From Owenia fusiformis (taxonomy: Eukaryota > Annelida > Polychaeta > Sabellida > Oweniidae): a stretch of DNA of 64,000 bases. The stretch is from assembly GCA_903813345.2 (NCBI GenBank), contig CAIIXF020000011.1:18397754-18461753 (forward strand), in the 5' to 3' direction. This document shows positions 18,535 to 56,794 of this stretch, in pieces; the stretch's first letter is position 1, and each line of letters begins with the position of its first letter. The notes beneath the pieces are model-generated. The model searched no databases, was not told where the DNA came from, and saw nothing but the letters and a program-made list of their open reading frames with translations. Made by a program: the position numbers and the translations under genes.

Positions 18535-18618
18535 AGATTCGGACTACGGATTAAGTATAACATAATTCAACATAGTTTTGTTTTGCGCAAAAACAGAAGA
18601 GCGGTGAAGAAAAAGACA

Positions 18619-18691
18619 ATGTATCTTGGTGAGAGATTGTGCTCAGCATTTGCCCTGTGGCTGTTATTAAATGGATGCAGTCTAGTAACCG
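18619..18691 (+). CDS. GGNG precursor, alternative distal first exon (signal peptide)
   Basis: 24 codons plus one base: MYLGERLCSAFALWLLL, then N-GCSLVT, donor GTAAGT, phase 1. This is a classical signal peptide with a hydrophobic core, cleaved most likely at or near the exon junction. It differs from the 27317 copy by one residue (Asn for Tyr at position 18) plus silent changes, so the coding sequence has been conserved while the flanks have diverged. I found no copy of exon 2 between here and 27317, so it must use the exon 2 at 45766 if it is active. Confidence 0.85.
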
Positions 18692-18744
18692 GTAAGTTCA
18701 ACATTTTCTCACATTTTGAAAACAGGATAGTAGTTGTCTGAAAA

Positions 18745-19040
18745 TAGGCGAGGCAATTTTTAAATATATGAAGCGAATTTCAATAGGCGATGCATTTTTT
18801 TTAAATAAAGGATAAACTTTTTTAATTTATTCAATTTTCAATAAGTGAGGCAAATTTTCCAAGGCGAGGCAAATTTTAATATGTGAGGCAAATTTTGTTA
18901 GACGAGATAAATTTCAATAGCCGAAGCAATATTGATTGGACAATTTTTAATAGGCGAGGTAAATTCCAATGGTCGAGATAATATTGTCATAGATGAGGCA
19001 ATTTTTTGAAAACGTGGCAAATTTTGATAGGCGAGGATAA
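18745..19040 (+). repeat. Degenerate ~25-30-bp tandem repeat, GGCGAGGCAAATTTT type
   Basis: About ten decayed units of (A)GGCGAGGCAAATTTTAATA follow the distal first exon. The unit is A/T- and G-rich with frequent point changes. No coding frame. Confidence 0.65.
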
Positions 19041-20800
19041 TGTAAAATAAAGAGTATATGTAAGTAATGGTACTATGGACATCATATTTTCAATTTCATT
19101 ACAAATGAGGTTTAAATATTTCTTTTGATAAGATTTTAGTGAGGCGTTGCCTCGCCCGCCTCATACCTAGCTATATCCATGAACATATACATACTATGTT
19201 AGTATTTACATGATTTACAACACAACTTCATTGATTGTTTTTTTTATTCATAGTTTATCCTTTACATATTCTTTCGTTACAAGATTAAGCCGCAAGAACA
19301 ATGTTGAAAAATAAGTGGCGCCTTTTATCTTAACTGCAGAAACCTAAATTGTCATGAAATAACCACAAGGCCTATAGATGTCGGCAACTCCACGGAGTAG
19401 CAAATCCCAACGAACAATATATTCATGAATCTGTGTATGTCACAATGTAAGACTTACCATCTACTCTACCCTTTTTAAATTGGCAGATGTTTAGAGACAT
19501 ATCAGAATTTTCCACCGATAGTACGGATTTGGGTGACTATTTATGAGTTCAAGAGGCACACATCGTTAAGTGAATAATGTTGAGATCTAATATAGTATAC
19601 TGTAACCATACGTTGAAGAGATCTCTAAGTAAAATTTCCGATCTAGGCAGCCATTTTGAATCAGAAAATCAGAAAAACGATACTATAATTATAATCTACT
19701 CTAAAATTCCTTCAATTTGAGTATAATCAGTTTGAAGAGATCAGAACATTATTGCGAAATCCCAAAATAGGAGGCTATTTTGGTAGAACTATTCACGAAT
19801 GCACATCTTTCCACTAAATATGAAGAATCCACTTGTATTTGATTTATCATCCGGACCGACGGATAGATGTACGGCTTCACTGTATCTCTACCGAACTTTG
19901 TTAGTTGGGATAATTACAACTACGAAATTAATGGAAATGACGCGTGTCTATATATCAATGGAAAAAATTGTTTTAACTAAAAGTGATTTTTACAGTCACG
20001 ACATGTTATCAGGTAGTAATGGTGTGTATTATGGTATAATGATTATGATATATGGTTGTCTAGCTACATGCCCTTGTGAACCCCAATAACATACACCATC
20101 ACCACAAGAAGTGGTAAAGTAGGTAGGGTGGGGGGAGGTACAAAGACTTAAAACAAGACTAATGATATGGCCAACAATCCGAATAAGACAAAACACTTTT
20201 TTTTAAACGACATGCGCGTACTAGCAGGCATGAGGAAGGCAAGGCAAGTAAAGTGCCTTTAGTTTTACAGAATTATACTTTTTAGACGTTTTTCAAGTAA
20301 GATCGTAGGAGGCAGTCCAAAGGCCCTTCAAAGGTAATTATATACCTCCCTAAGCTTCATCTGCTTCACCTCTGCTTTGCCGCTGAACAATCTTAAATTG
20401 TATCCAAACGATTTCGAAACTGAGGTTGAGACTTTCGTGATCAAACAACTCGACAAGAAGACCGAAAAGGCTTCTATACTGAATCGTTAATACTAATGAC
20501 CATACTTTTACTTTTAAATGTTTGCAAATGCACAGTCAATCAAGGCGAATGTAATCCACTTACCATAGAGTTAAATATATCTATCTGGAGTTGGGATCTG
20601 CTGTTGAATACTGATTAATCCCAGAACTTTAATCGTTTCAAGCGATCACGTACCAGAACGTAAATTTGTAGCAATCAGAAATGCGTTGAACTATCCAATT
20701 AGATAGTAGTTTATACTACACAGTACACTAATGGTACTAATTGCACATTGGCACACCATCGGTACTAATTATATGTTTCGCTTATTCATTATCTATTTTA

Positions 20801-21633
20801 TTTTCTCCATATTAGGTATAAGTCACACAATAATTCATTCGTTGGAACTATTAATTATTCAGATATTGTAATTCTGCTCTGCATGTGTATTATAAAGTCA
20901 CTACAACCGTTCAAGAAAGTCTACCACAATCGAAATCTGGAGTCTCAAACGAGCATCCATGGCTTACAAAGATGAATAAAGCGATATTGTAAATGAAATG
21001 GCATGGGTAATACTTGCTTTTTGAATTTTACCCGCATATTTTATTCCTTGAATACCCGATGATTATAGAAACGTGGGATATTTTCGCCAGCCTATAGTTT
21101 CGACATTGATAAGTAATTCTTTTTGATAGAGTACTAATTAGTCAACGTCTCAATAGTTCACTATCTGATAAGAGACTACTAATTACGTCATACGTCTGTT
21201 TAAACGCTTCCCTTACCAATACAAAGCACTTTTAACGAAATTGTATTTTGCCAATCTTGTTCTTAACGTCCTAATCGTACATCGGAAATCATGATGGATT
21301 CATCCCCACTGTCTATAATTGATTTAGACATGGCGTATCTCCCTTGATATACACGGTGTATCTTGTACGATATTAAGCTGTAATTACCATTGTGTCATAA
21401 TTGAGCTGGGAATAAATATCAGATATTAATAGAAAATATTGCGACAGTTGTGTCCGTTTTTATGTCATTTCCATTCCTTTAAAACAATTAAGGTGTTTGT
21501 CTAAGACTTAAGGAATTCAGTCAAGCAGCTACTTTGTGGTACTCAGCGGCATATGCCACTTGGCCTGATAGTTTTACATCAGTAAAGGTCGTCGATAGTG
21601 TAACTTTTTCCTGAGTAGTGTGGTGTGATATAG
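20801..21633. other. No gene recognised
   Basis: Intron or intergenic AT-rich DNA downstream of duplication copy 1. No conserved coding frame seen. Confidence 0.55.
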
Positions 21634-22018
21634 CATGGGCGTAGCAGGAGGAGTGCGATCTTCAAAAAATCGGTTTTTAGTCAGGGATTGCGATCATGGC
21701 ATTAGCTTTCCAAAAACAGTTTTTTAAGATTTTTTTTTGAATTTTACAAAAATTGATAACTTCCTACAAAATTGAGCTAGACGCTTTAAATAAAAAGAAT
21801 CTATCTAATGGGGTGCGTTCGCAGCAATCACATCCCCCTGGCTACGCCTATGTATAAGAACATAACTTTGTTAAGATTTTTTTTTGAATTTTACAAAAAT
21901 TGATAACTTCCTACAAAATTGAGCTAGACGCTTTAAATAAAAAGAATCTATCTAATGGGGTGCGTTCGCAGCAATCACATCCCCCTGGCTACGCCTATGT
22001 ATAAGAACATAACTTTGT
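21634..22018. repeat. GGGCGTAGC-ended MITE with a 147-bp tandem duplication of its right part
   Basis: Left end CATGGGCGTAGCAGG matches inverted right end CTGGCTACGCCTATG (about 21838-21852). The right 147 bp (AAGATTTTTTTTTGAATTTT to CATAACTTTGTT) then repeats from 21873 almost without change, so the second right end lies just before the 39-bp satellite. The near identity of the copies suggests a recent event. Confidence 0.75.
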
Positions 22019-25223: not shown

Positions 25224-25546
25224 TTATCGCACTTCTTGTATTGTAGGACTGTAGAATGAACCTCTCTTGTACGTTGACAAATGATTCACTGGTGACTTAT
25301 CCTGGCATATGTCGCAATAGCAAAGTCCACGTTCCAGTATTTGGTGTCTGATACGACAGCTTACGACACTGATGAATCCATCTAGAACGCGTTTCTCTTT
25401 TCTGTATTTTACGACAATTCGTTTTAAGTTATGGATGTCTTGTCTACTGTTCTCGCTCGATTCTTGAAGTTTTTGAACTTCCTGATTGTTGGAGATGATG
25501 TCCATCTCGTTGGAGATGGTTTCCGTCTCGTCAATGACGATCTCCT
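25224..25546 (-). CDS. Coiled-coil gene exon 2
   Basis: Acceptor CCAG then EEIVIDETETISNEMD, open for 106 codons to TAA. The last 50 residues hold four Cys (one alone, then CYCDIC) and end FYSPTIQEVR. Confidence 0.6.
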
Positions 25547-25982: not shown

Positions 25983-27238
25983 AATTCTTTCGCCTTCTTT
26001 TCATGCACCGTCTTTACGATTGAAAGTCTCTTTTGTTTATGTTTATATCTCCTTGGGAGTTACGGTTCATAGCAATAGGGCCTATGACGTCATCGAAATG
26101 TTTAATGTTGTTATGACGTGACCTCTAAAACAAACTACACGTGACTTCTTTCTTTCGAAACGTCACAAGAGAACTTATGACGTAATATCTTTGAAATATA
26201 ACATAACAACAGTAACTAAACAACAAACATTTCTGAACATGGTGATAAAATACACGCAAAATTTAATAAGGCACTCAAAAAGTAACTATGTCCGATATAT
26301 AAACAACAAACAGTAATCACAGTAACAACGTATTTATGATTTTGTGTGGTACTGTATTTTCATATGAATATAAGGCAGCTTCAAAAAGTAACAAAGTTAT
26401 TGTCACACTCTGTAAAAAATGTTGATAAAAAATACTTCCGGATAAAACATAATTATTTACGACGAGGAAGTCTCACTCCTTGGATCTTAAAATCAAAAGC
26501 CAATAAAACTTCGTCGCGATAAGTCAATTGAAACATTCAATTTCAATTCCCGGTGAAATGACGCACTATGACACGTTGTGAATAATTCATTTGAAGAATG
26601 GCAAACTTCTTTTTACAAGAAAAAGACAAGGAGGATGAATTAAGATCATGAATCAGGAGGGAGCGTCGCCCACCCAGATCTGATTCAAAACGAGTTATTC
26701 CAAAATAGCAAACGTAACGCTTCATCTCCCTGCACCTTATTGGTTGGGCTTAAAATAGGCTGGACTTAATCAAGAGGCACCATCAGCACCATCAGCTTTA
26801 CTCAGTATTATTAAAAAAAATACTACACTAGTCTGGTAGTTCAGGCGTGGGAGACTGCTAATATTATTGCGCGTTAGCACGACGACGAGATTGACTTATT
26901 TTGCGATATAAAATATTCATATCATAACAGATTAGAGTGTGGATAGTTTCAAGCGATAATTATTCATTCAGACGTTAAGCACTATAATTACATATGTATT
27001 TATTGTTGAGTAAAATTTATTCAAATTATCATTTGATCTGAAATTCTATAGGACTACCATTTGCAGTGATTAACATCAAGCATCCGTCATATCCTGATTT
27101 GCGCAACGGCCAACAGGCGACAGTCAAGGCGCGAGTTTACTAACGCTGAACCAAATCACACATTAACTTATTTACGTAGGTCAGACGTTTTAAATGCTAT
27201 TATATTTCGACCAATAGAGACGAAGACGAACTCCGGAT

Positions 27239-27246
27239 TATATAAG
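27239..27246 (+). promoter_or_regulatory. TATA box of proximal GGNG promoter
   Basis: TATATAAG lies about 71-78 bases before the ATG at 27317, with CCAAT about 28 bases upstream of it. The distal copy reads TTAAGTATAACA at the matching site, so the box is not shared. Confidence 0.4.
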
Positions 27247-27316
27247 AACTCGCAATACTATAATTCCTGCCCATAATATAGTTTTGCGCAAAAAGAAGAG
27301 TTAGAAATATAAAAGA

Positions 27317-27389
27317 ATGTATCTTGGGGAGAGATTGTGCTCAGCATTTGCCCTATGGCTATTATTATATGGATGTAGTCTAGTTACAG
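27317..27389 (+). CDS. GGNG precursor, alternative proximal first exon (signal peptide)
   Basis: Same 24-codon signal peptide with Tyr at position 18, donor GTAAGA, phase 1. The 5' leader starts after a TATATAAG at 27239-27246 and ATG follows 70 bases later. The intron opens with an 88-bp tandem duplication. Confidence 0.88.
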
Positions 27390-30300
27390 GTAAGAAAACA
27401 ATTATCTTATCGATTGTACACATACTTTTTTAACACAACTTCAGTTGTTTTTATATTATATATTTTATACAATCTTGTATTGTATACAATTATCTTATCG
27501 ATTATACACATACTTTTTTAACACAACTTCAATTGTTTTTATATAATATATTGTATACAATCTTATATTGTATACAATTTTATATTGTATAATACAATAG
27601 GAGGTTTACCTGTAGGTTTTAAGAAAGCTTGAACGTGAGTGAGTAGAACTATGGTATTCCATGAATTAATTCTAAACTAGGTAATATTTAGAGACTTGTC
27701 CCATTTAGTATAAATAAAAGTAGTTGTAATTAGGTCAAAAAACAATTGAGAGGGGGGGGGGCGGTAATCAATGGGGTTAGATTGATAAGCGTTCACGTAT
27801 ACGTACACGTACGTTCTCTTTTAAACGTCCAGGTTAACCTCCTCCTAATTTCTGCGTTGTGCCCGATTGTCCATTTGCAATCATTATTTTTGTGAAATTA
27901 GAGACGTGTCGATGTATAGAGTGCAAGGTTGGCATGAATCCCAAAGGGAATTAAATGTAACATCAAAGTGAAAAAAAAAAGCTGAAAGAACAATTGTTGG
28001 CAAACAATTGGCGAGTTTTATTCCATTACCGCAAACCTGAATTGTCATAAAATAAACATTTAGTCTAATTACAACTCCGAAATTAATGTAAATGACGCGT
28101 GTATTAATATCAATGGAAAATATTGTTTTAACTAATAGCAGTATTACCAGTCACGACATAGTATTGAAGTAGTAAACGGAATAATTGATGACATGACTTA
28201 TCTAATTGAGGTATACACGCTATTTTCTAACAACCTTCAATTGTATCAAAACGATTCCAAACAGTCAGGATAAAACTTGAAAGACTTCCGTGCTCATCGC
28301 GATCGAAGGACTCGATGGGACTTGTTTCCTATGATGTGTTTTTTACGGCGAGAAAGCTTCCATCATAATGTTTCCTCAGTACTGATGGCCTTACTTTTAC
28401 ACTTCCCGCCAAAAGTTTGGCAACCGGACGCTGCTTTTTGTATGACATATTATCAAACAACATCTGTTTAGATTTGGCGAAATCGATCAAATTTCTCATT
28501 TTCAGAACTCTTGTTATTCAGGAACAAAATAAGGATTCAAACATCGCCAGGCTTTATTTGATACGCTATCAAATGAAAACTTCTATTTGCTAAACTTTTG
28601 GAGGGGAGTGTACCTTGAAATGTGTGCAGAAGCACAATCAATCATGATGGGTGAAATCCACTTACCATACAGTTTAAATATCTATCTGGAGTTTGGATCT
28701 ACCGTTGAATACTGATCAGTTTCATGAATGTAATCGTTTTATACCATCAAATACCGGAAATCCTGCCAGACAGTGCATAAAATGAACAAGGCACTATTGG
28801 CACTAATATTTCACAAATTAATGTACTTGTGGTACTAATCATATGCTTATCCATTCTTTATTAAACGTAATAAATTGTTATTAATTCAAGGATTTAAGCA
28901 CGGGACTATGCCAAGGCAATTGCTGTTACTTGCCTGAAACAAGGGCAAAAGCTGAGTCCATTCAATTTCACTTAATTAGGTGCAGAATATCACTTTTATC
29001 AAAATTAGCGATAAAAACGATAATAGCGATAATGTTATAATAAAAACTCAGACCTGAACCATGGAGGTATTACTATTGGCAATTATATTGATAAATTCGA
29101 CTTGAAGACTCATCAAGAACTACCCTGCGTGCAGAGTCTAGTTAAACTATGACGAAGCTCTCTTTTAAGAAGTGAAGTCAAACGAATGCAAAGGGTAATC
29201 AAGAACGGACATTCGCACAAAGGTATTCACGTAATAACATATATATCTATCTGGATGGAGAAGTAGTGTAGGACTGATAGGCACTGTTCCTTTAGTTCGT
29301 TAAGTCATGAGAATATTGGGGGTTGTATCCATACTGTTGAACCAGTGTAGTCCTTCAGTGAAATACCTTGATGGACCAATATGGGTTTTAGTTCGTTAAG
29401 TCATAAGAATATTGGGGGTTGTATCCATACTGTTAAACCAGTGTAGTCCTTCAGTGAAATACCTTGATGGATCAAGATGGGTTTTATCCTTACGCCCGAT
29501 TCTACTCTAATATGATCCCCTTTCTGTTTGTGTTTTTGATTCTTTTTGTTTGGTGTTTACTGTTGGAACTTGTCTTAAAGTATTTATTTCTTCTCAATGT
29601 AATATTGTTACTTAATACTAGTACTTTTTTCAAGAATACAAGGTTGCTATGTGTTTTTCCAATCTTATTTCCAATCCCGTTCATGCATTCTTTGGACAAC
29701 TTGGCACGGATTTGTCGCCTTGAGGCGTGGGGTATCACGGTGTTTACGAAGAATATACGAAGGCATCACGCATAAAAACATGGTGTTTCTAGCACGATAT
29801 TAGTATGTGAGACCAAAACATATTGCAAAACACAAATGCAAAATAACACGAGAGCACGACCAGGCACGGCACGAGGGAAACAAATCATAGTAAGAAAATA
29901 TTAAGAGTACTTTGTGCAGTATGGCCTGGAGAAGGAATCAGAAGACATTGGGCGGTTAGACCATTTAGTTGTTTCATTTTTGCATGACTTTACCTGTAGT
30001 TCATCATTCTGATACTCATAGCATCTTTCTGTTTCACCTGAAACATGCTCTGATATTATGAGGCATATTCTGTGATCCGAGCACATCAGATGGGAAGAGT
30101 TATAACTGTCAATAAGTGTGATAGTTATCATGTAATCATTTACCTAATGTCAATACATTACATAATAGGCATTGTATTTAACAGCAGATATTAGCACAGG
30201 TACGTGTACACAAGTTTAATGACCCCAATTAAACCTGCACATCGCTCCAAAACGCAATATGTTGACATATATTGTTTTTACATTTTTAAGCTCTAATATA

Positions 30301-33300
30301 AAGTTTATGTAAATAAAAATTGTTTTTTCTGCGTTATATCAAAGAACAATCATTTCGTTAAAAAAAATAAAAAGGCGAATGCGGGATTCGAACCCGGGCC
30401 TCCCGCGTGCTAAGCGAGAATTGTACCGCTAGACTACCGTTTTATTATGAATGGTGGAGGTAATTAAACGCTACTTAATTTGAATGCTATGATTCGGAAG
30501 TGACGTCACGTTCTTCATTTAGAAACCTTTTCAAAATAATATCGTCGGCGCCGATCGAAGCAATTCAATGAATAATCTTTGAAATGACACATTTATCGTA
30601 AGTATTTCTACACAAGATTTGCCCCATTTGTTCATCATTCTATAATCTTACATTAAGCTCAAAATGATAACGTTCACCCCCGAAACAACCCAAGATTGCG
30701 TTTTGGAGCGATGTGCAGGTTTAAATGAAATATGAGCTGGGATCTCAAAAATCCTCAATTTTGGGCTCTCCTGGATCGCCAAATCAACCTCATTATATCA
30801 TGGCATCTCAGGGCTGACAAGAAATGAGATGTCATGGTATATCATGATGGTAGTTCATGGACAATTGAACTTGGAGTAAATAGACATTGCTAGTGTAGCA
30901 TCAGTTTAATTCAACCTCAAAGACAGACCGATTTCGATTGTTTTTTCATTAGTCCCCCGAGTCTAAATTACGAGTTTCTTAGTGAAATTACCAGGATATA
31001 CGGTCTTACTTTATCAATTTCAAATCTCAACTCAAAGATGTTATATAGTAACGCCAAGGTCATAGTACATGGCATTTCAGATTCAGTAAGTCATCGTGGT
31101 ATATTGGTTAAAAAGTCATTCGAAATATCGTGGCTAACTCCAACAATTAAGTCTGGTTTAACAGTTTGTGTAAAATGAAGGACATCATCAGGACTTCAGG
31201 ATCAGGATTTTTTATAAATGCTTTTACTAAATGGTCATTAGTTTGAATATCATGGTTTGTTTATTGTAGTCGATTGGGCCTTCGTTCCGTTCCTTTTCCT
31301 ATTGAGTTTTTCCCTTTGGCCATTTTATCGTCATGTCGTCATCGCATTGATCCTTTAAGAAGCTAAACAAAATAGCACATGGATAGCCACACTTCTCAAT
31401 TAGCCTTTAAAAGAAGCATATTTTTAATAGATCTGCCGCGGTCGGATGTTAACGACGATGAGCCACTATAATAACAACTTAAAATCGTTTAGCAACATTA
31501 TGCCATCAGTATAAGTCCGCAGATGTAATAGTTAATGAAACATCGTGGATTTTCACGCATCTCAATACAACTTAAAGGAATATTCCTTTCCAGACTATTT
31601 ATCTCCTTATATGGTAGCTATAATCATATATATACTCTCCATATTTAGCAAAACACGAAAAAAAAAATTTGAAATGGTCAATATTGTTAATTCAAAATTG
31701 TATTACTCATTTCCAGTAAGCTGCCATCTTTTAAAACTTCATTAAGGAAGTGATGTCATCGACTCTCACCTGTTATAACCTTGTCTATTACAGTATAGGA
31801 AAGAAGCACAAAATTACTTCTTGACAAGAATCCCTTATCTTCTGTGCAAAAATATTTTCAGGGCTTGTCAACCCAGAATTAAAGAAGAGATCACCAGAAG
31901 GATTTAAATCATAGAACAAATTGAAAAAAATATTCTACTGGTTTTGTAATTCCAATAGCTCTTTACCTAATGCTATATGCAAAGTTGGGAGTCGATGACA
32001 TCACTTCCTGAGTGAAATCTTAAAAGATGGCAGCTTACTGGGATTGAGCACTATATTTTTAAGTTATCAATATTGACCATATCAAAACATTTGTCCATGT
32101 TTTGCTAAACATGGAAAGTATATGTATGGTTATAGCTACCATATTAGGAGAGAGATGGTCTGGCAAGGAAGATTCCTTTAAGTCAGAAGAAATACACTGA
32201 CGAAGCCAAACATCCTCTTTATATAATAATCATGGGAAATCATACCCTACGCGCAGAGTCTAGTTATAAACTACGACGAAGCTTTCTAGCTTATGAGAAG
32301 CAAAGTCGAACGAATGCAAAGGGTAGAGAAATCATGGACTAAGTATTAGTTCCTTTTGAGTTAAAAAAACAAAGAGAAGTGATGAGTGTAAGAATGTTAC
32401 AATAAAGAAATAACGTGTTTTAAATTTATAATCTGTCTTAAGAAAAAAGAAAGACTGATCGATCATATAAGATGTAATAAAAAATACCCCTAATAGTGTG
32501 GAGAATCAATTCTGTCCCAAGGCGCAAAAATTACTACAAAAATTGCGAAGTTGAATCTGGGAGTAAATTAACATGACAGACATAATGTGCAATGAACCAA
32601 CGCTAACCGGACCACCACAACGGCTACGTCCTGGTAGTAATGTTGCAAACACTCCCAGGGTAGCCTGAACACCCTACTTTTGATTTGTGGACATGTAACC
32701 TTCGTTTGAGTTGTTTAAATATGTAATCACACCCCGGGAAGCACACGTACCAAAATAGAAAGATAAAAAAATAAAACTATGCTTTATCAATTAGAAGGAA
32801 GCAAACCTCCCTATCAATGATCTTTTCTTTCACCGTTCAGAGTCAAATATCACAATCGTTCCGGAACCAAGTGACAAATGAATGAAAACATTTTTTAAGA
32901 AGTGTGGTGAAAACACAACTATTGTTTGAAAATGTGGCAAAAAGACACAAGTGTTTCTGAGAAGAATGGCGTGAAAACACGATTGTTTCTGAGAAGTGTG
33001 GTGTGAGGACACGATTGTTTCTAAGAAGTGTGGCGTGAAGAGAGCTCTTTCTGAGAAGTATGGCGTGAAAATACGATTGTTTCTATAAGATGTGTGGCGT
33101 GAAGAGAGAGTCCTTTTGTTTTTAAGAGGTGTAGCATGATGAGGGAGAGAGAGAGTTCTTTCTGAGAAGTGTAGCGTGAAATACGATTGTTTTGAAGATG
33201 TGTGGCTGAAGAAAGAGAGTTCTTTCTGAGAAGTGTGGCGTGAAAATACGATTGTTTTTAAGAGGTGTGGCGTGAAGAAAGAGAGTTCTTTCTGAGAAGT

Positions 33301-38811: not shown

Positions 38812-38842
<31 letters not shown>

Positions 38843-41800
38843 AGAAGCATATTGAAGGCAGAATGACAATAGTGTGTCTCATCATTTATCACAAGGCACT
38901 ATCTGATGTATCGCCGTGTCCTCTAAAACCAAATGGTCACTGGAGACTACTTACTCGTAAAGTACAATGCCAAGGCAGGATTTTTCAAACTGAAAATTGG
39001 ACTTTACTTCTTTTCTTCATCCTAGTTTGACCTTATTCATAATGGATCACATGTATAACTAGATTGGTGAAATTGAACAAGTTCAATTCAAGACTCCAGA
39101 TTCCAGATTTATTTTTTAAAATGATTTTGACATCTAAAATTAATGAAAAAATGAGCAAGAACATATTAAAGTCAAAAAAAAAAAAATAAATAAAAATGTT
39201 TTACTTCTAAATGGTCAAAGTAGGTCAACCGGAAATCGGATCTCAATTTCGATGAAAGATTTCGAATCCTAAGAAGATGTCCTAATAAATTGATACCAAT
39301 CTCGATAGATTTGGAACACTTTGAAACTTACCCTTAATTAATTAATTCATTGAAAATAATTGGAATTATTTGAAATACTTAGATTAACTTAGAAAATTAT
39401 TCCTAGCAAGTTATTCTAAAAGGTTAGACAGAAAATTGAAAATTTGGGAAACTTATAAATTTGACCTAGATTTTGACCCTGACCTTTGACACTCAAAACT
39501 TTGAGTTTATTGACTTTTTAATGTCCTTTTATACTGTTTAAACTTATAGATTTTTAAAAATTCACCTTTTTTACTTTAAAAGGTCATAGAAGGTCAACCG
39601 GAAGCCGGATCTCGATTTCGATTTCAGATTTGGAATCCTGAGATTTCCTAATAGACTGATACCAATTTCGATAGATTAGGAACACTTTCTTTGAAAGTTA
39701 AGCCTTAATTAATTAATTCGAATTAATTAGTAAAATTTCTATCGAGACATAGAGTGGGCGAAATGTTTGGAATACTTAGATGAACTTATAAATTAATTCA
39801 TCGCAAGAAATATTGAAGAAGAATACAGGCAAAAGCAATAGACTTCAGATTTTCAATCAGGAGTCGAATCAATAGCGCAACACTGAACTGGTCTTTCCCC
39901 TCGGATATTTTATTTGTCCTATTGTTTGAAGTGTCATTGTTATCATCATGTTGTGTAACATTTAATTTGGATTTATTTCCCTTATTATCTAAACACTGGT
40001 CTCTCACCTCGGGTATTTCATTTGTCCCATTGTTTGAAGTGTCATTGTTATCATCATGTTGTGTAACATTTAATTTGGATTTATTTCCCTTATTATCTAA
40101 ACACTGGTCTCTCACCTCGGGTATTTCATTTGTCCCATTGTTTGAAGTGTCATTGTTATCATCATGTTGTGTAACATTTAATTTGGATTTATTTCCCTTA
40201 TTATCTAAACACTGGTCTCTCACCTCGGGTATTTCATTTGTCCCATTGTTTGAAGTGTCATTGTTATCATCATGTTGTGTAACATTTAATTTGGATTTAT
40301 TTCCCTTATTATCTAAACACTGGTCTCTCACCTCGGGTATTTCATTTGTCCCATTGTTTGAAGTGTCATTGTTATCATCATGTTGTGTAACATTTAATTT
40401 GGATTCAATTCCCTTATTATCTAAACACTGGTCTCTCACCTCGGGTATTTCATTTGTCCCATTGTTTGAAGTGTCATTGTTATCATCACGTTGTGTAACA
40501 TTTAATTTGGATTCAATTCCCTTATTATCTAAACACTGGTCTCTCACCTCGGGTATTTCATTTGTCCCATTGTTTGAAGTGTCATTGTTATCATCACGTT
40601 GTGTAACATTTAATTTGGATTCAATTCCCTTATTATCTAAACACTGGTCTCTCACCTCGGGTATTTCATTTGTCCCATTGTTTGAAGTGTCATTGTTATC
40701 ATCACGTTGTGTAACATTTGAATTTTCTTGATTATCTCTCATTAGGGAGAGTGATCATTTTAATTACTGGATAACATCTCATTCAATCATTTAATGGCAA
40801 CCACATTTATGGTCTCTTAGTTATGTCCGTAACAGTCCCTATGTACCATAACTATTACATCATGTTACATCTAATTCCACCATGGCCACCTGATAAACTT
40901 GTAAAATCGTGCTTTTGTTCGTCTTGTCATATGTATTCGAACAGAGACACTGTTTTATATGTCTCTGATACGAATCACAATCGCTTTCATCAATTAAGTT
41001 GATCATTTACGTCATTGATAATTTTGCAATACCAAGTTAAGTTATCGGTTCGTAATGCGTAGGGCATGGCCATCGGATACAGCGGGCCACAGGGCATTGT
41101 TTAGATATTTTAAGTTGTAATATAGCTTGGTTTGAATCTCACTATGTATTCGCAAATGCAACTAACGACTGTCGGCTTCCGGATTAACTTATTATTTTAT
41201 GACCAACTCATTTAAATATGAATGGAATCGTGGTAGGCACTATTCATATTTATATCAGTTACCTATTAAATAGTAGGGCAATCCGGTAGCCGACAGGCGC
41301 TAGTTGCAATCGCGAATACAAGCTTAAGTCTGATTTAATGGAGATCGAACCTTTGTTACTTCCACTAATTGACCAGGAAAATGTGTAAAATGCCCCTATC
41401 CTATCTATTCTCCTTTTATGAAACGAATACACTAATTCGATGTACTTGATAAAAAACCTTTTATGGTCATTAGATTAAATGGATTAACTCGAAATGGGCA
41501 AATGGATTTAATTACCACCATGGCCATTATTTTTGTCTTGTACTTGAAACTAGATTATCACACGTGATGTTTATCACACGTGATGTTTATCACACGTGAT
41601 GTGCCTTTATATGCCGTACAGGTAAAATGACTATGTGCCCATGTGATTATAGTTCCCATTATTGCCTTAAGATCAGTTGATTAATGTTCCAATGATGGCC
41701 CATTTGTTGTGTTCAATTCTCTATCATATGGAAATTCATCAAAGCGCAAATGAACGAAATGGCTAGTTAAAGTCAATTTATAAACGCATTTTTATGATGG

Positions 41801-44800: not shown

Positions 44801-47800
44801 ATGTGACAATAACAACTGAGTTGACACCCAAATGAAAATAATGTTTTTGGATTAGCCAATACAAGAACGACAACAGACATATACACAGGCTGGTATCCAG
44901 AGAGTTGTCCGCTGTGACGGAAAGTGCTATTTTTCATAAAAACACTAAGAATACTTCACAATTTATTTTTAACTCATATGTTTCGTTATGTCAAAGAAAA
45001 TTATATATTACTCCATGCAATGTATATATCATTTGCGGGTAACCTTCACTTATGTTTGAAGTTCAATAAAGCTAGGAGTAAAAGCTATTGAAAATGGCGC
45101 CGGAGTATCATACTCTAAAATGTACCATTTCTTTTTTAACTTTTTAATGGCACGACCATATTTACATATGGAATGAGATCTGGGTGTATTGGGTCTTTTT
45201 AATCCTTTTATAAAAAATAATGTTTAATTTTTTTGTCCGCTGTGACGAAGTAGTTTCACACTTCAATTTGCAACTGCTCCGTCAAAGCGGACCCACATGG
45301 TATCATATATTATAAAGAAAACTATATTTTTGTTTGATTTTATTTACGTTTTACCATTAACATAGACATTTTGGCAAAAACAGTGCATACAGGGTGGACG
45401 CAAAATTGATTCCATAAGAAAAATGAAGCGAATGCTCGCGAATGCAAGTTAAATCTAATGTACTAGTAAATGAAATTAGATACGTATATATAATAATTTT
45501 AGTCATGTGGTAATGTTTGGCCCACCTTTTTCGATTACAATTATGAGATGCATACAGCATATAATGATTGAAAACAGCTATTACGTTGTCATGAGATTTT
45601 TGCATAATAACTAGAAAATAGTCACACAATTTATTGTATATTCAGTTAACAAAGTCACCAGAAACAAAAAACGTAAACACAGACACGCTTTAATTAACAG
45701 GCCGTATATATGTATTGCTATTTTACATATTTATATGAAAACTTTTAATTTTGTTTATTTTGCAGGGAAATGTTCTGGGAGGTGGGCAATACACGCGTGT
45801 GCAGGAGGTATGTATCATTCTTCTAGAGGGATATTAACATCAAGCAGGTGAATTTTTAATGCTTATTGAATATATGAATTTTCTTTATCATGTGAAACTT
45901 CAACTTTTCATGTATCATTTGGGTATAATTTTTCTGGGACACCTTGTACAAGCCTTTTATTAATAGCGTAACGATTTATTTTTCTAGAACAGAGATTGCA
46001 TTAATTGTACATTGTGATTTCAACGTAAGGTACTTCTTCTTTACTGGCTCTTTGCCTATGATTTAAAAAAGTCCCTAACATCTTTTTCATGTATTTTAGT
46101 AACTTTAGAAGGAAAAATTAATGAAAAAAACTGTTTGAATACCAGATCTTTTTAAATCCCCCAACAGACAATTAACACGAAGAGCCTCAGTCAAAATACA
46201 GACTGACATAGAAGTTAATATCCGGAAGCCAAGAAACGCAATATTAAAACAAACACTTATTTGGAACTGAGAATACTAAACATAATACTTGACCAAGATA
46301 AAAGGGCAGATAATGTAAGGACACGAATCTGATTAAGAAAATGCATTGATTCGATTAGGTTTCTGTGGATCAAATTACCTAATTGAGTATGGATAAGTAT
46401 CTTCAATTTACCTTGACGTGGGCTGGACATCTACAGTTCGAAGTCCCGGGTTTTAAGTAGGTATTGACGTTCGTAGATTTTGTCTGTCCTCTGGGTCTAG
46501 ATTATTTATCTGTCAAAAGATGACATTTGGAGACCGAAACATCCTTTGCATTGATATCGAGGCTTCCTTTCTAATTATAGAAAGATATTAAATGGCTAAG
46601 GAGTCTACGGGTGGGTCAGGATTTAAGGAAGACCGAGTGGGAAAAGTATTATGGGTAACAACTACCTCTGCCTACATTTAAAAGTATGAGGTTCATTTCG
46701 TTTTGGTTGAAATACTATGCTTTATAGCAATCGGATTTTGCTCATGTTTGTCTTTATGCTTTTTTGTTGACTATACAACAGACTCATATTCGGAAAATTC
46801 CGGGAATTCCCGTCGGTACCCACGGGATGTTAGTCTAGGGTAATACGACGATGTTTTTCTTATTTAAGAGTATCTTGTACGACAACAAACAAGAGCAAAT
46901 ATCTTCGCCCCGAGCGCGGATGTGGAAGCCCAACTGTTCTGGGTTATATAAGTGTTCTGACTCTTGCCCAAATAATGTGACAATCCAAGTGTTCCGAATT
47001 CACTTAATTCAACCAGGTCTGAAAATTCAGAGAGGATGTCAAATAAATAATTTTCTGGAAAAAACGTTGGCCCCCAAAATATTGTGCATTTTTGAAAGTT
47101 TGGACCTAATTTTATAAAATATTGAAAATCAACGTATCTAGTGTACAGGGTGTTCCATATGTTTCAGGAATGATGTTGTATTTTAGTGGTTTTCTATTCA
47201 ATCGAGCTGAATTTTTCACAAAATGTGTCCAAATATGTTGTGAATAAGTTAGAAAACGTTCATATCATGAAGCTCAATAGACTTAATGATATAGTTGCTA
47301 TGGTAACCCAGGGGTAAGATAGGTGGAGTAGGTGTGGCAATGCGCAAAACATGAAATATTTGTAAAAACCATCGTTTTTGCATGAAGTGTTAGAAAGTAT
47401 TAGGTTGTCATAGTTACATCAAAATTGTCAAAAATCAAAGCAAAAATCGAGGTGGATTCTTTGAAATTAAAAAAATTGTCATTATTGATGGAATCACAAT
47501 TGTTGCGCGTTACCTTAGTTGAAATTCATCTTTTACTGATGACAGTTTCACTTTTCAAGATGCCCACTCAGTCAAAATGACCTGTGATTATTCTCCTTTG
47601 GTACCCATGACATGACAGGTTTTTCAATTGTGATATATCATCAATAATGACAATTCTTCTTAATTTCCAGGAATTCACTTACCGAATTCACTTTGCTTAA
47701 TTTCTGACTTTGATGCAACTATGAAAACCTAATACTTACCTACACTTCATACAAAGAACGACTATTTTTACAAATATGACATATATTTTGCCGGTTGTTA

Positions 47801-50800
47801 CACCTGCTCCACCTACCCTACCCCTGGGTTACTATAGCAACCATATTATTAGGTCTACTGACCTTCATGATAAAACTTTCTCAATTCATTCACAACTAAC
47901 ATGTGCACATTTTGACAAAAATTCAGCTAGATTGAAAAGAAAACAACTAAAATACAGCATCATTCCTGAAACGTATGGAACACCCTGTATTTGATAAAAT
48001 GAGTAAACGCATCTAACAATTGGGTCAAGCCAGAATAATTTGGCCAAAGGACGGTATACTTGGGTTTCCAAGAACACTTGGAGCTTCACAAACGATCGTC
48101 TTAGTTTGTACGTTTGAATAAAAAAAACTAAATATATCTATTTCATTGATTTTGAAACGCCCAGGGGTAAGATATTGTTGGATTGTTTATCACGTTAAGT
48201 ATCGTTATGGAAGAGGAGCCCCCCTCTTGTATCTTGAGAAAAAAATCAATGGAAAGTGCGAAGCAAACATATTTTCTATCATAACAACAATAATATAGAC
48301 ATAAACATACTTTCACTAGACTTCCTATCTCATACATGGAAATTTACAGTGATTGGAGGGAGGGGTGAGTTGATCGAATTAAAGTCAAAGCTAGTATAGG
48401 GTTGGTCCGTCCTACCCTTTCTCAGACAAGCAATTGTCAAGGGGATGCGATTCTTTGGGCCTTGCATCATTGCGAGCGAAGCGAGCCCGAAAAAGAGGGG
48501 ACGAGGTTCACCGGATTTTTTTATAATCAACATGGTTATGTATATTAGCCTATATGGTGTATTCTAAGCATTTCAAAGTTCAAACTATAATTTGATGTAT
48601 TTTCAACAAATTAACAAAATAACCCACTGGCTACGCCCACGAGAAAGAACTGATATAAGACTGTGATCTTTCAAGATTGGAAATGCCGTTGGTTCCGCAT
48701 TAGTAGTCAGTCAGACACAACTTCAGTCAGGTGAAAGTGACTTTTGGTCCTAATCGTATCAGTATAGTATTTGAGTCATCGGCTGTTGGAGCGAGTGGAA
48801 TAGTAAATTCCACCAACCAATGTTGAATCATTTATTTTTCTAGTATTCTAATGATGCCCTTTGTGGTGTTATTTATAAAAGACTAGGTTGATTAATGATT
48901 AATTGCTGAATCACTAGTTCAATAAAGCGCTAATCCTTCTACTAACTCTTGTTTAGTGACATGGTCTGACCAAAGTAGTTGTCATTTACCCAAGAGATTC
49001 CTCTTTAATCTCTAATGACGAATAAATATGTATGATGTTTTGATGAGTTGTCATGGAAATAAACAGGTGATCCGATGAAATTAAGACTGTTTTATCTTTA
49101 TATCAATTAATAATAAATAATGTCCATGTTTTTGATCATCCTATAGCCTTTGCAAACTGTTCATTTTCAAATAATTGTTTTCCTCGATATCATATCGTTA
49201 TTTATGAACGTTATTTGAAAATTCTAAATGTATATACGGTGGGAGTGCACAATGGGCAACCATGAGAAAACACGACAAATCCACAAGTATCAAGTACGCA
49301 CATTAAGCTGAGACACATTCATGAATGATAATCACGCAACATTCCATGCAAGGGCTGTTACTAATTATTGATACAGATATAGTTAAATACCAAATTCAAT
49401 TAAAATATAAATCCTTCTTAGGATAACATAACTGGTTATTGGACTTATAAGACCTTAGTATAAGACCTTCGACTAATATCCTTCAACACGCCAGGAAAAT
49501 TGGAACATCCTCCCAATTAGAAAGAGGACTTGCTTTATAGATGGATAAATACAGGGTGGGCCGAAACATATTATCCATTTTGATTGAACACTATTTTTTT
49601 AAACGAGGCTACTTTGATAATATTTTTTTCAGAACTATGTCACAAAAGCATGACGTTTATTGGATAATAATGGGTTCGGGCCTTTTGGCCTTTGGCCTTT
49701 ATTTCACCTAACACCCAGGACTCATGGTTTATCTATTACCCAATACTCTCTTATTTTGTCACTGTTTCTGAAGACTGAATTTCTTGACCAATGTTTGTCT
49801 TCGGAGTCTCTATTGTTCACGAGCGTGTCAATCAACGCTTTAGTGTCGAAAAAGTTAATGTGTATTATGCAACTGGACGGGCACATCCCCGGGGGCACGA
49901 TGATGTGTGTCCAGTGAGAATCATTACTATGGAAATGATGAGAAAGAAATTCATCTCAGCTCTGAGAGAAGAAAACAGGGTTTTAATTATTTATCTCGCG
50001 CCTCAAAGACAATCCACAGCCACAACACTCCCTTGGTCAACCCCCTGTAGGAAGCAAGAATACTAATAGTCTCCTACTGTGTCACTGTTTTAGAACAAAT
50101 TCCAATGATTAATGCCATGCATGAAAGATGTGATAAGCATGAACATAGGATGGTGTTGTTATCACAATCAAGCTAAATTCTAAAGAGGCGTTTTTCTTTG
50201 ACCATCTTGCATTATCTTAAGTATTCTTAGTTGTTATTCCGTTTATTGATGAGCCTCCGAGGCCATTATTTTATTTATACCCTGTCCAAAGTTTTATTTT
50301 ACTATATTCATTATACTAATGGGATAATGGATGGATTAGCAGCACACTGTCCAGAGTTGATATATTATACATAATATAAATCTAAGGAGTTAATGAGAAT
50401 AAAAAACTTATCAATTCAAGCTCCATTATTGCATCAATAATACCCTGAGGTATACTGTAGTAATTAGTAGTACTACCCTCTGGAGAACAGTACTAGCAAT
50501 CAAAGGAGTTTGGATATAACATGAATACCATGTGCCAGCTATCAGCATCTTCGAACGCTTTGTCTGTTACGCGGTATATGGCATACATTCATGGTTGCGC
50601 GGTATTTGTGATACGGGTGAATATGCCATACTCACCTGCGGTATATGGCATATTCCGCAGTAAATATGCGATACATTGATTTCAGTGAATACCCGATATT
50701 CACCTGAGGAATATGTCATACTTACTTGCAGTATATGCCATATACCGCAGGTGAATATGACATATACCGCAAGTGAAAACGTGATACAGAAAGCCTTGAT

Positions 50801-52415
50801 TTTGATTGGTTGCGAGAATCGACTCTAAATGCAAAACTACGCTGGATTACCAATATAGTTAGTGCGTCGAGTACTAATATATGAATCCTGGATTGATTGA
50901 GTAAGTTAATTACACGAGATTGGTGACTGATACTTCTGCTAAGTTGATATATTCGATACACAGGACTGTTGATTCAGTAATCATTATAATAATTCATAAC
51001 GTTTTACTTGTTCGTTTAATCGATGCAATTGACAATTGCGTTCTTCCGTATCACGTTCTCATTGGTTAGTGTGTATGCCATATACCGCAGGTGAATCTGT
51101 CATACACCGCAAGTGAATATGCCATATTCGTTGCGGAATATGACATATTTTTGTATCGTGTTTGCCGCGTCACATTGTCTTCTCTGCGTTTAAGACCGAT
51201 GGTAGTCGAGCGAATGAAGATGAGTTATCAGAAGACGTTATTTGCAATCCTCATTGGAGTCACATGTGATTTTGAGAAATGTTTAAGAATGAGAAAATAC
51301 AGTGACCTACTTCTTAAAACTACAAAATAAGGGTGCCGAAATAAGTAGATAATTTCTCATTTCTCTAATGGGGATTCCATAAAAATTCCAAACGTACACT
51401 TACTACACGTACACTTACAGTGTACACAATCACTAACCTGCCTATTTGCCATCCGCCTTAACTAATGTGACTTCGATTCTGATGAATTTGAACCAATCTA
51501 TACTATCTGGATAAAATATTAATGAAAGGATTGTCTCTCACTAAAAAGCACAGAATGAAGCTTTCCTCCAGAGAATCGAATTCAAACCAATGAAAAGGGT
51601 ACATTTACAAACAGCAACCCCCTCCAATTCTCTCATGACAATGGAGGAATTAAACATTTTCGATGGAATGCTCTAAAGGACCTCCATTGTGATCAATGCA
51701 GAACTGTTCAATTTTTAGGACACCCTGTGATAGTGAGCTGGCCCGTAGCCAGGATTTGCCAAAGAGGGGGGGGGGGTTCAGTTTTTGAAAATTTCCAGGG
51801 GGGGTTCACTTTTGACAATCTTGGGGATTCGCTCGAACCCATCGAGCCCCCTGGCTACGGGCCTGGTGAGGGGGCATAGACTTGATTTGAAATTGAGTGC
51901 ACCATCAAAATATGCAGTCTCAAATGAATAATCCTACAGCACATAAATTATTCATGTGGTTAGACTTTGAAATAAAGTTCAGGGATTTACATTTGGACTC
52001 TATAAAAACTTGTTGATTTGAATGAAATATGTTGTTAATGGATGACACCCATCATGTTGATGAAATGTACATGTATATCTTAATGAATCCATATGTATAT
52101 GTTCCAGGTAATGGTAAACGATCACAAGACAATGCAATAGACTATAAAGTAAACACATTAAATGATGATTTCTATGGGAGATTACTACAAAAACTAATGC
52201 CCCAAACATCAGAAGAAAATCTCCCATTTCAACATGTTGAATTGAACAGAAATACTCTCCCCGACGGCCCGATCTCGCTACCATATAGAGGTGTACTTCC
52301 CATGAGTGAATCAGGATCGGACCCAGAATCATATGAACTTTCCTACGACTACAATCCGAAGTCAAGAGACGCTCTGGTAAGATGGTTCTTTAACAAGGAG
52401 TTTTTGCAAACATAA
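27317..52415 (+). CDS. GGNG/excitatory-peptide-type neuropeptide precursor (proximal first exon isoform)
   Basis: A secreted precursor of a cyclic, disulfide-bridged neuropeptide. Exons 27317-27389, 45766-45807 and 52108-52415 join in phase 1 at both junctions to give 140 residues: signal peptide, then GKCSGRWAIHACAGGNG, then dibasic KR, then an acidic spacer of about 96 residues. From memory, earthworm EEP-2 is nearly identical over the core, and the marine snail Thais peptide shares KCSG-WAIHAC-GGN. The two cysteines (core positions 3 and 12) should bridge. Because Gly precedes Lys-Arg, the mature peptide is probably C-terminally amidated as ...GGN-amide, as in the snail form. The peptide directly follows the signal peptide, so no other cleavage is needed. 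A second first exon at 18619 can splice to the same exon 2. Confidence 0.9.
27398..27575 (+). repeat. 88-bp tandem duplication at start of GGNG intron 1
   Basis: ACAATTATCTTATCGATT recurs at 27398 and 27486, followed each time by ACACATACTTTTTTAACACA and a TATA/ATAC-rich tail. It lies just after the proximal donor. Confidence 0.75.
29121..29197. mobile_element. 77-bp micro-element with TACCCT...AGGGTA ends, perfect 9-bp TSD (copy A)
   Basis: Begins TACCCTGCGTGCAGAGTCTA, ends GAATGCAAAGGGTA, flanked by ATCAAGAAC on both sides. Four copies occur in this window. Confidence 0.85.
29290..29482 (+). repeat. 96-bp tandem duplication
   Basis: TTTAGTTCGTTAAGTCAT begins at 29291 and again at 29387, each followed by GAATATTGGGGGTTGTATCC and CCTTCAGTGAAATACCTTGA. 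Two units nearly identical. Confidence 0.8.
30233..30720. mobile_element. TTAA-flanked TIR element carrying a tRNA-like sequence
   Basis: A perfect 26-bp inverted repeat (starting ACCTGCACATCGCTCCAAAA) at 30233-30258 and 30695-30720, flanked by TTAA on both sides, as in piggyBac- or Kolobok-type transposition. 488 bp, no transposase. A tRNA-like gene lies inside. The element appears inserted into an older interspersed repeat whose pieces are at about 30003-30045 and 30800-30850. Confidence 0.88.
30374..30447 (-). pseudogene. tRNA-like sequence, Gly-like body with AGC (Ala) anticodon
   Basis: The minus strand has a good A-box region (GTAGTCTAGCGGTAC), anticodon arm CTCGC-TTAGCAC-GCGGG, and a perfect B box (GGGTTCGAATCCC) with a nearly intact T arm, followed by TTTTT as a polymerase III stop. 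The sequence from the D arm to the variable region resembles metazoan tRNA-Gly, but the anticodon loop reads AGC. The 3' acceptor strand ATTCGCC has no partner in the 5' flank (AAAAC region), so the acceptor stem is broken and the gene is probably not functional. It could be a tRNA-derived SINE head. Confidence 0.6.
31562..32192. mobile_element. Foldback element with ~220-bp arms
   Basis: The left arm (AAAGGAATATTCCTTTCCAG, TATGGTAGCTATAATCATAT, CAGTAAGCTGCCATCTTTTA, GGAAGTGATGTCATCGACTC) returns in reverse order and complement at the right (GAGTCGATGACATCACTTCC to CAAGGAAGATTCCTTTAAG). Transcription would give a long hairpin. Confidence 0.75.
32243..32325. mobile_element. Micro-element copy B (83 bp)
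   Basis: Begins TACCCTACGCGCAGAGTCTA, ends AATGCAAAGGGTA. Flanks GGGAAATCA and GAGAAATCA differ at one of nine bases. Confidence 0.8.
32880..34500. repeat. ~64-bp minisatellite with 521-bp higher-order repeat
   Basis: Units of GAGTTCTTTCTGAGAAGTG, GGCGTGGAAACATGATTG and TTTTTAAGACGTGTGGCGTG repeat about 25 times. Landmark variants (AGAAGCGTGGAGTGGAGACA at 33561 and 33625) recur 521 bp later (34082 and 34146), so a block of about eight units was duplicated. Long minus-strand frames across it encode only the repeat and are not annotated as genes. Confidence 0.88.
34540..35530. other. No gene recognised
   Basis: AT-rich intron DNA (GGNG intron 1). No coding frame or strong repeat noticed. Confidence 0.5.
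35538..35675. repeat. 138-bp hairpin with ~60-bp arms
   Basis: GTTATGTACTGGGAGGTTTT to GAAATATGTGTATCTCCC is mirrored by GGGAGATACACATATTTCCC to CCGACCGTACATAAC around a GAGGGACCGCAGGGACCGA centre. It abuts the next element. Confidence 0.8.
35678..36015. mobile_element. TIR element with A-rich core
   Basis: ATGTATTTCATACCTACTGA at the left and TAGTAGGTATGGAATACAT at the right are inverted repeats (24 bp, few mismatches). The core is a degenerate TTTGAAAAAAA tract (35790-35895) followed by a short GGATGGATGCAG...CTGTATCCATCC hairpin. A similar A-rich tract is at 62865-63060. Confidence 0.6.
36576..37536. mobile_element. CTCACACAGTGAGCCTATGG-type element with CCGT microsatellite
   Basis: GCTCACACAGT at 36576-36586 and its reverse complement ACTGTGTGAGC at 37526-37536 bound a 961-bp unit. 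A GTCC/CCGT tetranucleotide run (36610-36660) follows the left end, and the body contains repeated AGGTCAAAGGTCA-type words. No transposase. Confidence 0.55.
37648..37728. mobile_element. Micro-element copy C (81 bp, opposite orientation)
   Basis: Reads TACCCTTTGCATTTGTTCGA to TGTGCGCGCAGGGTA, the reverse of copies A, B and D. Flanks TAGCTTATG and TAGTTTATT match at seven of nine bases. Confidence 0.75.
38763..38842 (+). repeat. TTTC microsatellite
   Basis: About 80 bases of (TTTC)n with interruptions. Lys/Glu-rich frames on the minus strand are by-products. Confidence 0.9.
39215..39790 (+). repeat. ~370-bp spaced duplication
   Basis: GGTCAACCGGAAATCGGATC at 39222 and GGTCAACCGGAAGCCGGATC at 39591, each followed by a matching segment (GATACCAAT, TCGATAGATT, GAACACTTT, TTAATTAATTAATTC). 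The copies are about 80 percent alike by eye. Confidence 0.65.
39900..40730. repeat. 108-bp tandem repeat, about eight copies, open in frame on both strands
   Basis: CATTTGTCCCATTGTTTGAA recurs every 108 bp from 40018. Because 108 is divisible by three and the unit lacks stops in one frame of each strand, both strands show long ORFs. The minus ORF (39798-40742, 314 residues) has a 36-residue Asn/Asp-rich unit with N-x-T sites (NVTQHDDNNDTSNNGTNEIP) and a hydrophobic C-terminus. Units fall into two groups differing at GNKSKL/GIESKL. No splice partner or known domain was seen, so coding status is unproven. Confidence 0.8.
41146..41319. mobile_element. 174-bp MITE, GTATTCGC-N-TGCAACTA termini (copy 1)
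   Basis: GTATTCGCAAATGCAACTAA and CGACTGTCGGCTTCCGG at the left, reverse complement at the right (CCGGTAGCCGACAGGCGCTA, TTGCAATCGCGAATAC). A second copy lies at 52428-52588. Confidence 0.8.
41555..41602 (+). promoter_or_regulatory. Three tandem CACACGTGATG E-box palindromes
   Basis: TTATCACACGTGATGT is repeated three times head to tail at 16-bp spacing. CACGTG is the core site of bHLH factors such as Myc/USF/CLOCK types. It lies in GGNG intron 1; a regulatory role is inference, and a chance minisatellite is the alternative. Confidence 0.4.
42194..42336 (+). repeat. ~72-bp tandem duplication
   Basis: AAAAATGTATTCTAGGTCCA to GGTCATGCTCATGATCATCG occurs twice in direct succession, almost identical. 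Confidence 0.8.
42718..42790 (+). repeat. Interspersed repeat, compact copy
   Basis: CATTCTGATACTCATAGCAT runs directly to GGGCTGAGAAGAAATGAGAT and TTTATCATGATG. Same ends as the 15214 and 30003 copies with the middle missing. Confidence 0.65.
42800..45765. other. No gene recognised (GGNG intron 1)
   Basis: AT-rich DNA. Apart from the 44226 duplication and a CCGCTGTGACG word repeated at 44907 and 45237, no structure was seen. ACAGGGTGGACG near 45389 may be a lone CAGGGTG-type terminus. Confidence 0.5.
44226..44415 (+). repeat. ~97-bp tandem duplication
   Basis: GTTATACAAAG begins near 44227 and again at 44324, each followed by CATTTATAT...TTAGATCAATCAAT. Diverged copies. Confidence 0.6.
45766..45807 (+). 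CDS. GGNG precursor exon 2: 42-nt microexon with the peptide core
   Basis: Acceptor TTTATTTTGCAG and donor GTATGT bound 42 bases reading GKCSGRWAIHACAG plus the first base of the next Gly. It holds both cysteines and the WAIHAC motif. It lies about 18 kb from the proximal first exon and 6.3 kb from exon 3, and is too short for ORF finders. Phase 1 on both sides, so it could be skipped in frame, which would remove the peptide. Confidence 0.9.
47146..47987. mobile_element. 842-bp TA-flanked foldback element with CAGGGTGTTCCATA ends
   Basis: TA-CAGGGTGTTCCATATGTTTC at the left and its relative ACGTATGGAACACCCTG-TA at the right. The arms stay inverted for most of the length (ATAGTTGCTATGGTAACCCA / TGGGTTACTATAGCAACCAT). 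TA duplication and CAGGGTG termini suggest a Tc1/mariner-related non-autonomous element. Confidence 0.82.
48000..50550. other. No gene recognised (GGNG intron 2)
   Basis: Short ORFs near 49660-50066 overlap in different frames and have no splice or family support. TACAGGGTGGGCC near 49549 may be a single CAGGGTG-type end, and CACTGGCTACGCCCACG near 48622 a single end of the GGCTACG family. Confidence 0.5.
50560..51165. mobile_element. Element rich in TATGCCATATACCGCAGGTG iterons
   Basis: Variants of CATATACCGCAGGTGAATAT occur in both orientations, clustered at 50570-50790 and 51070-51165 with unrelated DNA between. Outer parts TTACGCGGTATATGGCATA and TTGCCGCGTCAC are loosely inverted. This looks like the subterminal repeat zones of a non-autonomous DNA transposon. 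Confidence 0.6.
51740..51863. mobile_element. 124-bp MITE with GGCCCGTAGCCAGG termini
   Basis: A perfect 14-bp inverted repeat, GGCCCGTAGCCAGG at 51740-51753 and CCTGGCTACGGGCC at 51850-51863, around a poly-G-containing core with GGGGGGTTCA(C) repeats. Related ends occur at 4591, 21634 and 48622. Confidence 0.75.
52108..52415 (+). CDS. GGNG precursor exon 3: GNG-KR and C-terminal spacer
   Basis: Acceptor ATGTTCCAG, then G-NGKR, which completes the GGNG motif and supplies the dibasic convertase site. Then follows an acidic, hydrophilic spacer (SQDNAIDYKVNTLNDDFYGR at its start, WFFNKEFLQT at its end) to TAA at 52413-52415. No second peptide copy or further dibasic site with a glycine amide donor is seen. 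A MITE starts within about 15 bases after the stop. Confidence 0.9.
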
Positions 52416-56780: not shown

Positions 56781-56794
56781 ATAAATAAATAATG

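Follow-up and report, generated by a model that had tools for sequence, protein, structure and literature searches.

Duplicated signal-peptide exons in a putative GGNG/excitatory-peptide gene of Owenia fusiformis may place one hormone under two promoters

Introduction

Why would a gene for a single small peptide hormone carry two nearly identical copies of the exon that codes for its signal peptide? The question is raised by a locus of the annelid Owenia fusiformis (contig CAIIXF020000011.1), in which an initial annotation had described a GGNG-type neuropeptide gene with two such exons and one downstream exon set. It had proposed that a promoter and its signal exon were duplicated in tandem, allowing two promoters to drive the same secreted peptide. 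We analyzed the surrounding 64 kb of DNA (hereafter the window) with regard to the identity of the gene, the reach of the duplication, the selection on the two exon copies and the explanations that compete with two working promoters. Literature marked "in part" is cited from excerpts, and the comparisons made with it hold for those excerpts.

Results

Identity and setting of the gene

Joined to either of the first exons, exons 2 and 3 (Table 1) give an open frame of 423 nt (140 amino acids and a stop). The exon 2 acceptor, TTTATTTTGCAG, has 12/15 pyrimidines and the tract of the exon 3 acceptor is weaker (9/15); a Gly codon is divided after its first base between exons 2 and 3, which places a phase-1 intron inside the peptide. 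The predicted mature peptide is GKCSGRWAIHACAGGN-amide, which in the precursor reads GKCSGRWAIHACAGGN-GKR after a hydrophobic N-terminus and is followed by a C-terminal part. The signal peptide was called from hydropathy only (maximum over nine residues 2.21 in both versions, the N18Y exchange being without effect). As the -3,-1 rule permits six cleavage points in each version, the exact mature N-terminus is a prediction.

Peptides of the EP/GGNG/CCHamide family are recognized by two cysteines, glycines, an amidated end and a position directly after the signal peptide, and the trochozoan GGNG/EP genes are orthologues of arthropod CCHamide (PMC6617912, in part). The conceptual precursor has one peptide copy directly after the signal peptide, and KCSGRWAIHACAGGN-G-KR contains two cysteines with an aromatic residue and a histidine between them, two glycines and an amidated C-terminus. 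Aligned without gaps, GKCSGRWAIHACAGGN is identical at 13/16 positions to GKCRGRWSIHACLGGN of the scallop Patinopecten and at 10/16 to SKCKGPWANHMCFGGN of the oyster (sequences from PMC5996578 and PMC4200219, in part). The second intron, in phase 1, interrupts the peptide. The related bombesin-type genes share this feature, which is stated for them rather than for EP genes (PMC12002301, in part). Pfam, which may lack an EP model, returned a single unrelated match below the cut-off for the 140-aa precursor (E 0.18) and likewise for exon 3 (E 0.091). The family features of the precursor and its likeness to the scallop and oyster peptides support the original assignment of this putative gene to the trochozoan GGNG/excitatory-peptide (EP/CCHamide) type.

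Downstream of the stop codon, a search of 1.4 kb for two poly(A)-signal-like hexamers found only ATTAAA at 52811. A foldback, MITE-like palindrome at 52428-52585, with arms of 25 nt (92%) and 47 nt (77%), begins 13 nt past the stop and thus lies within the probable 3' UTR; a relative is located in the intron, at 41145-41320. Further along, a 15-bp periodic array at 56785-57672 leaves 254 codons open on the + strand (56785-57546), with no Pfam family above the cut-off.

The long first intron contains several repeats. A 108-bp unit is repeated 7.8 times at 98% in 39801-40754, with open frames of 318 codons (- strand) and 304 codons (+ strand); its best Pfam match, YpzI (E 1.4e-5), is below the curated cut-off and likely repeat-driven. 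The same intron holds a large 32/64-bp minisatellite (32907-34482), which lies in a stretch with a strong excess of G over C (skew 0.267 for 32001-36000). In the window at large, two long imperfect palindromes at 31570-32183 and 47144-47989 (arms 90-120 nt, 83-86%) are possibly foldback transposons. On the other side of the gene, an open reading frame on the - strand (12074-12634) looks like the beginning of an SLC22 organic cation/carnitine transporter (PDB 9pdq, E 1.8e-5; no Pfam match), and such a gene would extend leftwards, head to head with exon 1A. Rfam gave no match at the gathering score in the window and ARAGORN no tRNA, and a pattern search of prokaryote genome contigs for relatives matched 20 stretches, none of which was confirmed, as expected.

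Table 1. Exons and paired features of the duplicated region, in coordinates of the window
Feature	Position	Strand	Remarks
Distal upstream block, copy A	17687-17755	+	blastn; 77% to 26526-26594; frames broken by stops
Candidate promoter region of exon 1A	18204-18618 (415 bp)	+	homologous to 26904-27316, 79% over aligned bases
46-nt non-coding element, copy A	18204-18249	+	415 nt before the ATG; 44/46 identical to copy B
Palindrome TTTTGCGCAAAA	18581-18592 and 27282-27293	+	just upstream of each exon 1 ATG
Exon 1A (distal)	18619-18691	+	predicted signal peptide MYLGERLCSAFALWLLLNGCSLVT; phase-1 donor
Intronic blocks, copy A	19287-19365, 19911-20019, 20509-20658	+	77%, 84% and 78% to copy B, colinear
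Distal upstream block, copy B	26526-26594	+	blastn; partner of 17687-17755
Candidate promoter region of exon 1B	26904-27316	+	holds the 46-nt element, TATATA at -78 and the palindrome
46-nt non-coding element, copy B	26904-26949	+	at -413
Exon 1B (proximal)	27317-27389	+	predicted signal peptide MYLGERLCSAFALWLLLNGCSLVT with N18Y; phase-1 donor
Intronic blocks, copy B	27979-28058, 28066-28175, 28611-28759	+	colinear with copy A
Exon 2, common to both	45766-45807 (42 nt)	+	supplies the rest of the Gly codon opened in exon 1, KCSGRWAIHACAG and one base of the codon after it
Exon 3 (terminal), common to both	52108-52415	+	GNGKR amidation/cleavage site, C-terminal propeptide, stop TAA

Two copies of the first exon

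The first exons, 73 nt each and offset by 8,698 nt, are identical at 66 of 73 bases. Six of the seven differences are synonymous and one is a replacement (N18Y), leaving 23 of 24 residues the same; the two 73-nt signal exons about 8.7 kb apart that were initially annotated, with one residue changed, are thereby confirmed in position and in sequence. The phase-1 donor ascribed to each copy is also present, as CCG/GTAAGT in exon 1A and CAG/GTAAGA in exon 1B. Both are strong, ranking second (1A) and first (1B) among the 3,562 GT sites of the + strand in a simple donor matrix of base frequencies. A 23-nt probe from exon 1, allowing up to three mismatches, matched only at 1A and 1B (none in 100 shuffles), with no third copy in the window. 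The copies are thus homologous and arranged in tandem, each with its own start codon and a donor of the same phase, as in first exons of the PGM1/UGT1 type.

Joining of exon 1A into exon 1B was considered and rejected. When 1A is joined to the AGs within 80 nt upstream of the 1B ATG a stop is met in all seven cases, and an A transcript would therefore yield the hormone only by skipping 1B. Six of these AGs are preceded by 3-8 pyrimidines in 15 positions; the one ending at 27281 has a fair tract (10/15, compared with 9/15 for exon 3), and splicing of 1A at this site leads to a stop and then to the in-frame ATG of 1B itself. By this test exon 1B appears to act as a first exon only.

Reach of the duplication

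The similarity between the copies extends well beyond the exons. Colinear blocks found by blastn pair 17687-20658 (copy A, 3.0 kb) with 26526-28759 (copy B, 2.2 kb). From -415 to -1 relative to the ATG, 307 of 389 aligned positions are identical, with 50 gap columns, and the candidate promoter region without the exon scores 156 bits between A and B, compared with 26.5 for the best of 60 control windows. Together with the exon it forms a block of about 490 nt (72% when gaps are counted). This supports the proposed tandem duplication of a promoter region together with its signal exon. Even with the promoter-exon block taken out, the neighborhoods reach 119 bits, whereas none of 60 control windows exceeds 33.7.

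The initial annotation had also described the coding part as much better conserved than the flanks. On the intron side this stands: right after exon 1 the copies cannot be aligned (30-57% in forced 50-column windows), in part because simple arrays occupy this region (27398-27579, 18833-18919). It does not stand for the 415 bp upstream, at 79%. Conservation falls again between the 46-nt element and the block 0.9 kb upstream, and the spacer between copies A and B is not repeated as a whole. The promoter reading gains strength from this correction, since the upstream 415 bp and several intronic blocks were also duplicated and retained.

Stops interrupt most frames of the conserved blocks in both copies, for which reason the blocks look non-coding; hidden coding exons within them are thought unlikely, with very short exons remaining conceivable. 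A dispersed-repeat origin was likewise set aside, since the best other match of each block in the window is its partner. One match departs from the colinear order (18331-18362 upstream of exon 1A with 28662-28693 in the third intronic block of copy B; 33 nt, 88%) and is perhaps a common regulatory motif.

Within the window, two short features of the candidate promoter regions occur only here. The 46-nt element has just two sites in the window, and its identity (44/46) tops that of the exon (66/73); matches of this grade are expected 0.002 times in a 3-kb search at a neutral divergence of 0.48, 0.8 times at 0.3 and 24 times at 0.2, so that the element stands out only at a high neutral divergence. 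The palindrome TTTTGCGCAAAA has two sites in the 64 kb, one for each exon 1, where 0.01 are expected, and by its consensus we take it to be C/EBP-like. In the last 100 nt before the ATG, copy A has TATA-like motifs at -91 (TATAAA) and -63, and copy B at -78 (TATATA), -58 and -9. None of them is exactly aligned with one in the other copy, which makes each core promoter a guess; the core promoters may have diverged, or the TATA-like motifs may be irrelevant.

Probable selection on both exon copies

The dN/dS comparison proposed in the initial annotation points to constraint. The Nei-Gojobori method counts 17 synonymous sites, of which 6 differ, and 55 replacement sites with 1 difference, giving dN 0.018, a dN/dS of about 0.04 and a dS of 0.48 (95% interval 0.16-1.3) that is loose as the exon has only 73 nt and 17 synonymous sites. 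At least six of seven changes would be silent under random mutation with a probability of 0.001, or 0.0023 and 0.0048 with a transition bias of 2 and 4. Had one copy been free since the duplication, 13.2 replacements would be expected at a divergence of 0.48, and one or none has a probability of 2.6e-5, which weakens to 0.027 at a neutral divergence of 0.2. The changes in this short exon fit purifying selection on both copies.

An exon silenced only recently would pass this test. One copy, most likely the distal A, might be a relic that was long in use and whose promoter was lost so recently that the exon has had no time to decay. If it had been free for the last tenth of the branch, about one amino-acid change (a tenth of 13.2) would be expected, as is seen, and N18Y can be assigned to neither copy without an outgroup. 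Such a relic is nevertheless unlikely, given that both exons retain the frame, the start codon and a near-consensus donor, and that both upstream regions retain the same blocks.

One downstream exon set

Exon 1A could also belong to a second gene, a full paralogue whose own peptide exons were lost, are unrecognized or lie beyond the window. Paralogous EP precursors exist, such as TEP-1 and TEP-2 of Thais clavigera (named in the reference list of PMC6617912), and short exons of unfamiliar sequence are easily missed. The searches of the 64-kb window argue against this reading and uphold the single peptide exon and single terminal exon of the initial annotation. No second exon 2-like stretch was found with six motifs in six frames, and a scan of the + strand for C...C...GG/GKR gave one match, the known exon 2. 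With tblastn exons 2 and 3 were each found once (the remaining 9 of 11 rows have E of at least 2.9), and the sole extra blastn match was a 20-nt self-match of exon 3 on the opposite strand. Exons 1A and 1B thus have one downstream exon set in common within the window, which is the layout of PGM1 and UGT1; any other exon 2 or exon 3 must be highly diverged or beyond the window, and we consider a second gene improbable.

In heterozygous marine invertebrates uncollapsed haplotypes are common, and the assembly could have set two haplotypes of a single exon 1 in tandem. The synonymous divergence of about 0.48 (itself loose), the 79% identity upstream with its gap columns and the unalignable intron all exceed ordinary allelic differences, and the spacer is not repeated as a whole, making such an artifact very improbable. 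Gene conversion, possible between tandem copies, might have kept the exons similar even if one of them was not under selection, but it would erase synonymous and replacement differences alike, whereas 6 of about 17 synonymous and 1 of about 55 replacement sites differ, and we give it hardly any credence.

Discussion

The interpretation in the initial annotation is, overall, partly supported by the sequence. With a probability of roughly 0.7, the locus reflects an old tandem duplication of a promoter and its signal exon, with part of the intron, and both copies have since been retained as alternative first exons that lead to a single hormone. The duplication would have taken in the promoter region and the signal-peptide exon along with at least 1.4-2 kb of the downstream intron. 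Transcription would begin at promoter A, 27 kb away from exon 2, or at promoter B, 18 kb away, and exon 1A or 1B would be spliced to exon 2 and then to exon 3. Exon 1 contributes essentially nothing but the signal peptide, and since this is removed, the same amidated peptide should result from both transcripts; they would differ in the time and place at which their promoters are active. We consider it likely that both promoters are used, and we infer that their use is cell- or stage-specific and that the processing of their products is identical.

In trochozoan GGNG/EP genes the signal peptide is likewise followed directly by one two-cysteine peptide ending in GGN-amide; a duplicated signal-peptide exon is not mentioned in the excerpts cited, in which gene structure is mostly undiscussed (PMC6617912, in part). 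In the part of the literature that our search covered, no title or abstract opening among the matches listed reports a duplication of the signal-peptide exon of an EP gene. Biologically, the nearest precedent is offered by the two EP transcripts of Lineus longissimus, for which the authors suggest alternative splicing, the remaining sequence being identical (PMC6617912, in part). This pair is described without an exon map, and its peptides differ by a few N-terminal residues, whereas the mature peptides predicted here are identical. In molluscan FMRFamide genes alternative transcripts also arise around the signal-peptide exon of a neuropeptide gene, with the layout reversed: one signal exon with alternative peptide exons, in contrast to two signal exons with one peptide exon (PMC4208409, in part).

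Duplicated alternative first exons are already known from other systems. PGM1 likewise has a duplicated coding first exon with one common downstream set, and both copies have long been kept; its first exons code for 82 paralogous residues of the enzyme, 51% identical between the copies, and give different proteins, whereas here 23 of 24 residues are identical and are removed from the product (PMC7101342, in part). The UGT1 and protocadherin clusters also join tandem first exons to common downstream exons (PMC1885805, PMC3325998, in part), in UGT1 with an own promoter for each first exon (PMC1885805). In these clusters many copies diversify the protein, while the two copies in O. fusiformis preserve it. 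Particular to the present case is that the duplicated exon is essentially only a removed signal peptide. Since its first exons code for a leader that is removed, only regulation should differ, unlike in PGM1, UGT1 and the protocadherins.

A more tentative extension of the two-promoter reading is that the control of one hormone was anciently split into two modules, each a promoter with its signal exon, which would release the same peptide in distinct cells or at distinct life stages. One module might, for example, serve larval ciliary control and the other adult gut and muscle excitation; EP raises the ciliary beat in Lineus larvae (PMC6617912, in part). Under such a split the signal exon would have been dragged along only because the start codon sits in it, and selection would hold its protein nearly unchanged.

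If both promoters are used, as we think likely, the animal may be able to turn on one hormone in two ways while the hormone itself is unchanged. The usual route by which duplicated genes split their expression is by turning into two genes. Here only the switch and a disposable leader were apparently duplicated, which could allow expression to divide between two switches, with the hormone held in a single copy and unable to diverge. Use of both promoters would make this locus a clean natural test of regulatory subfunctionalization, and could bear on the dual role of EP peptides in larval swimming and in the adult gut muscle.
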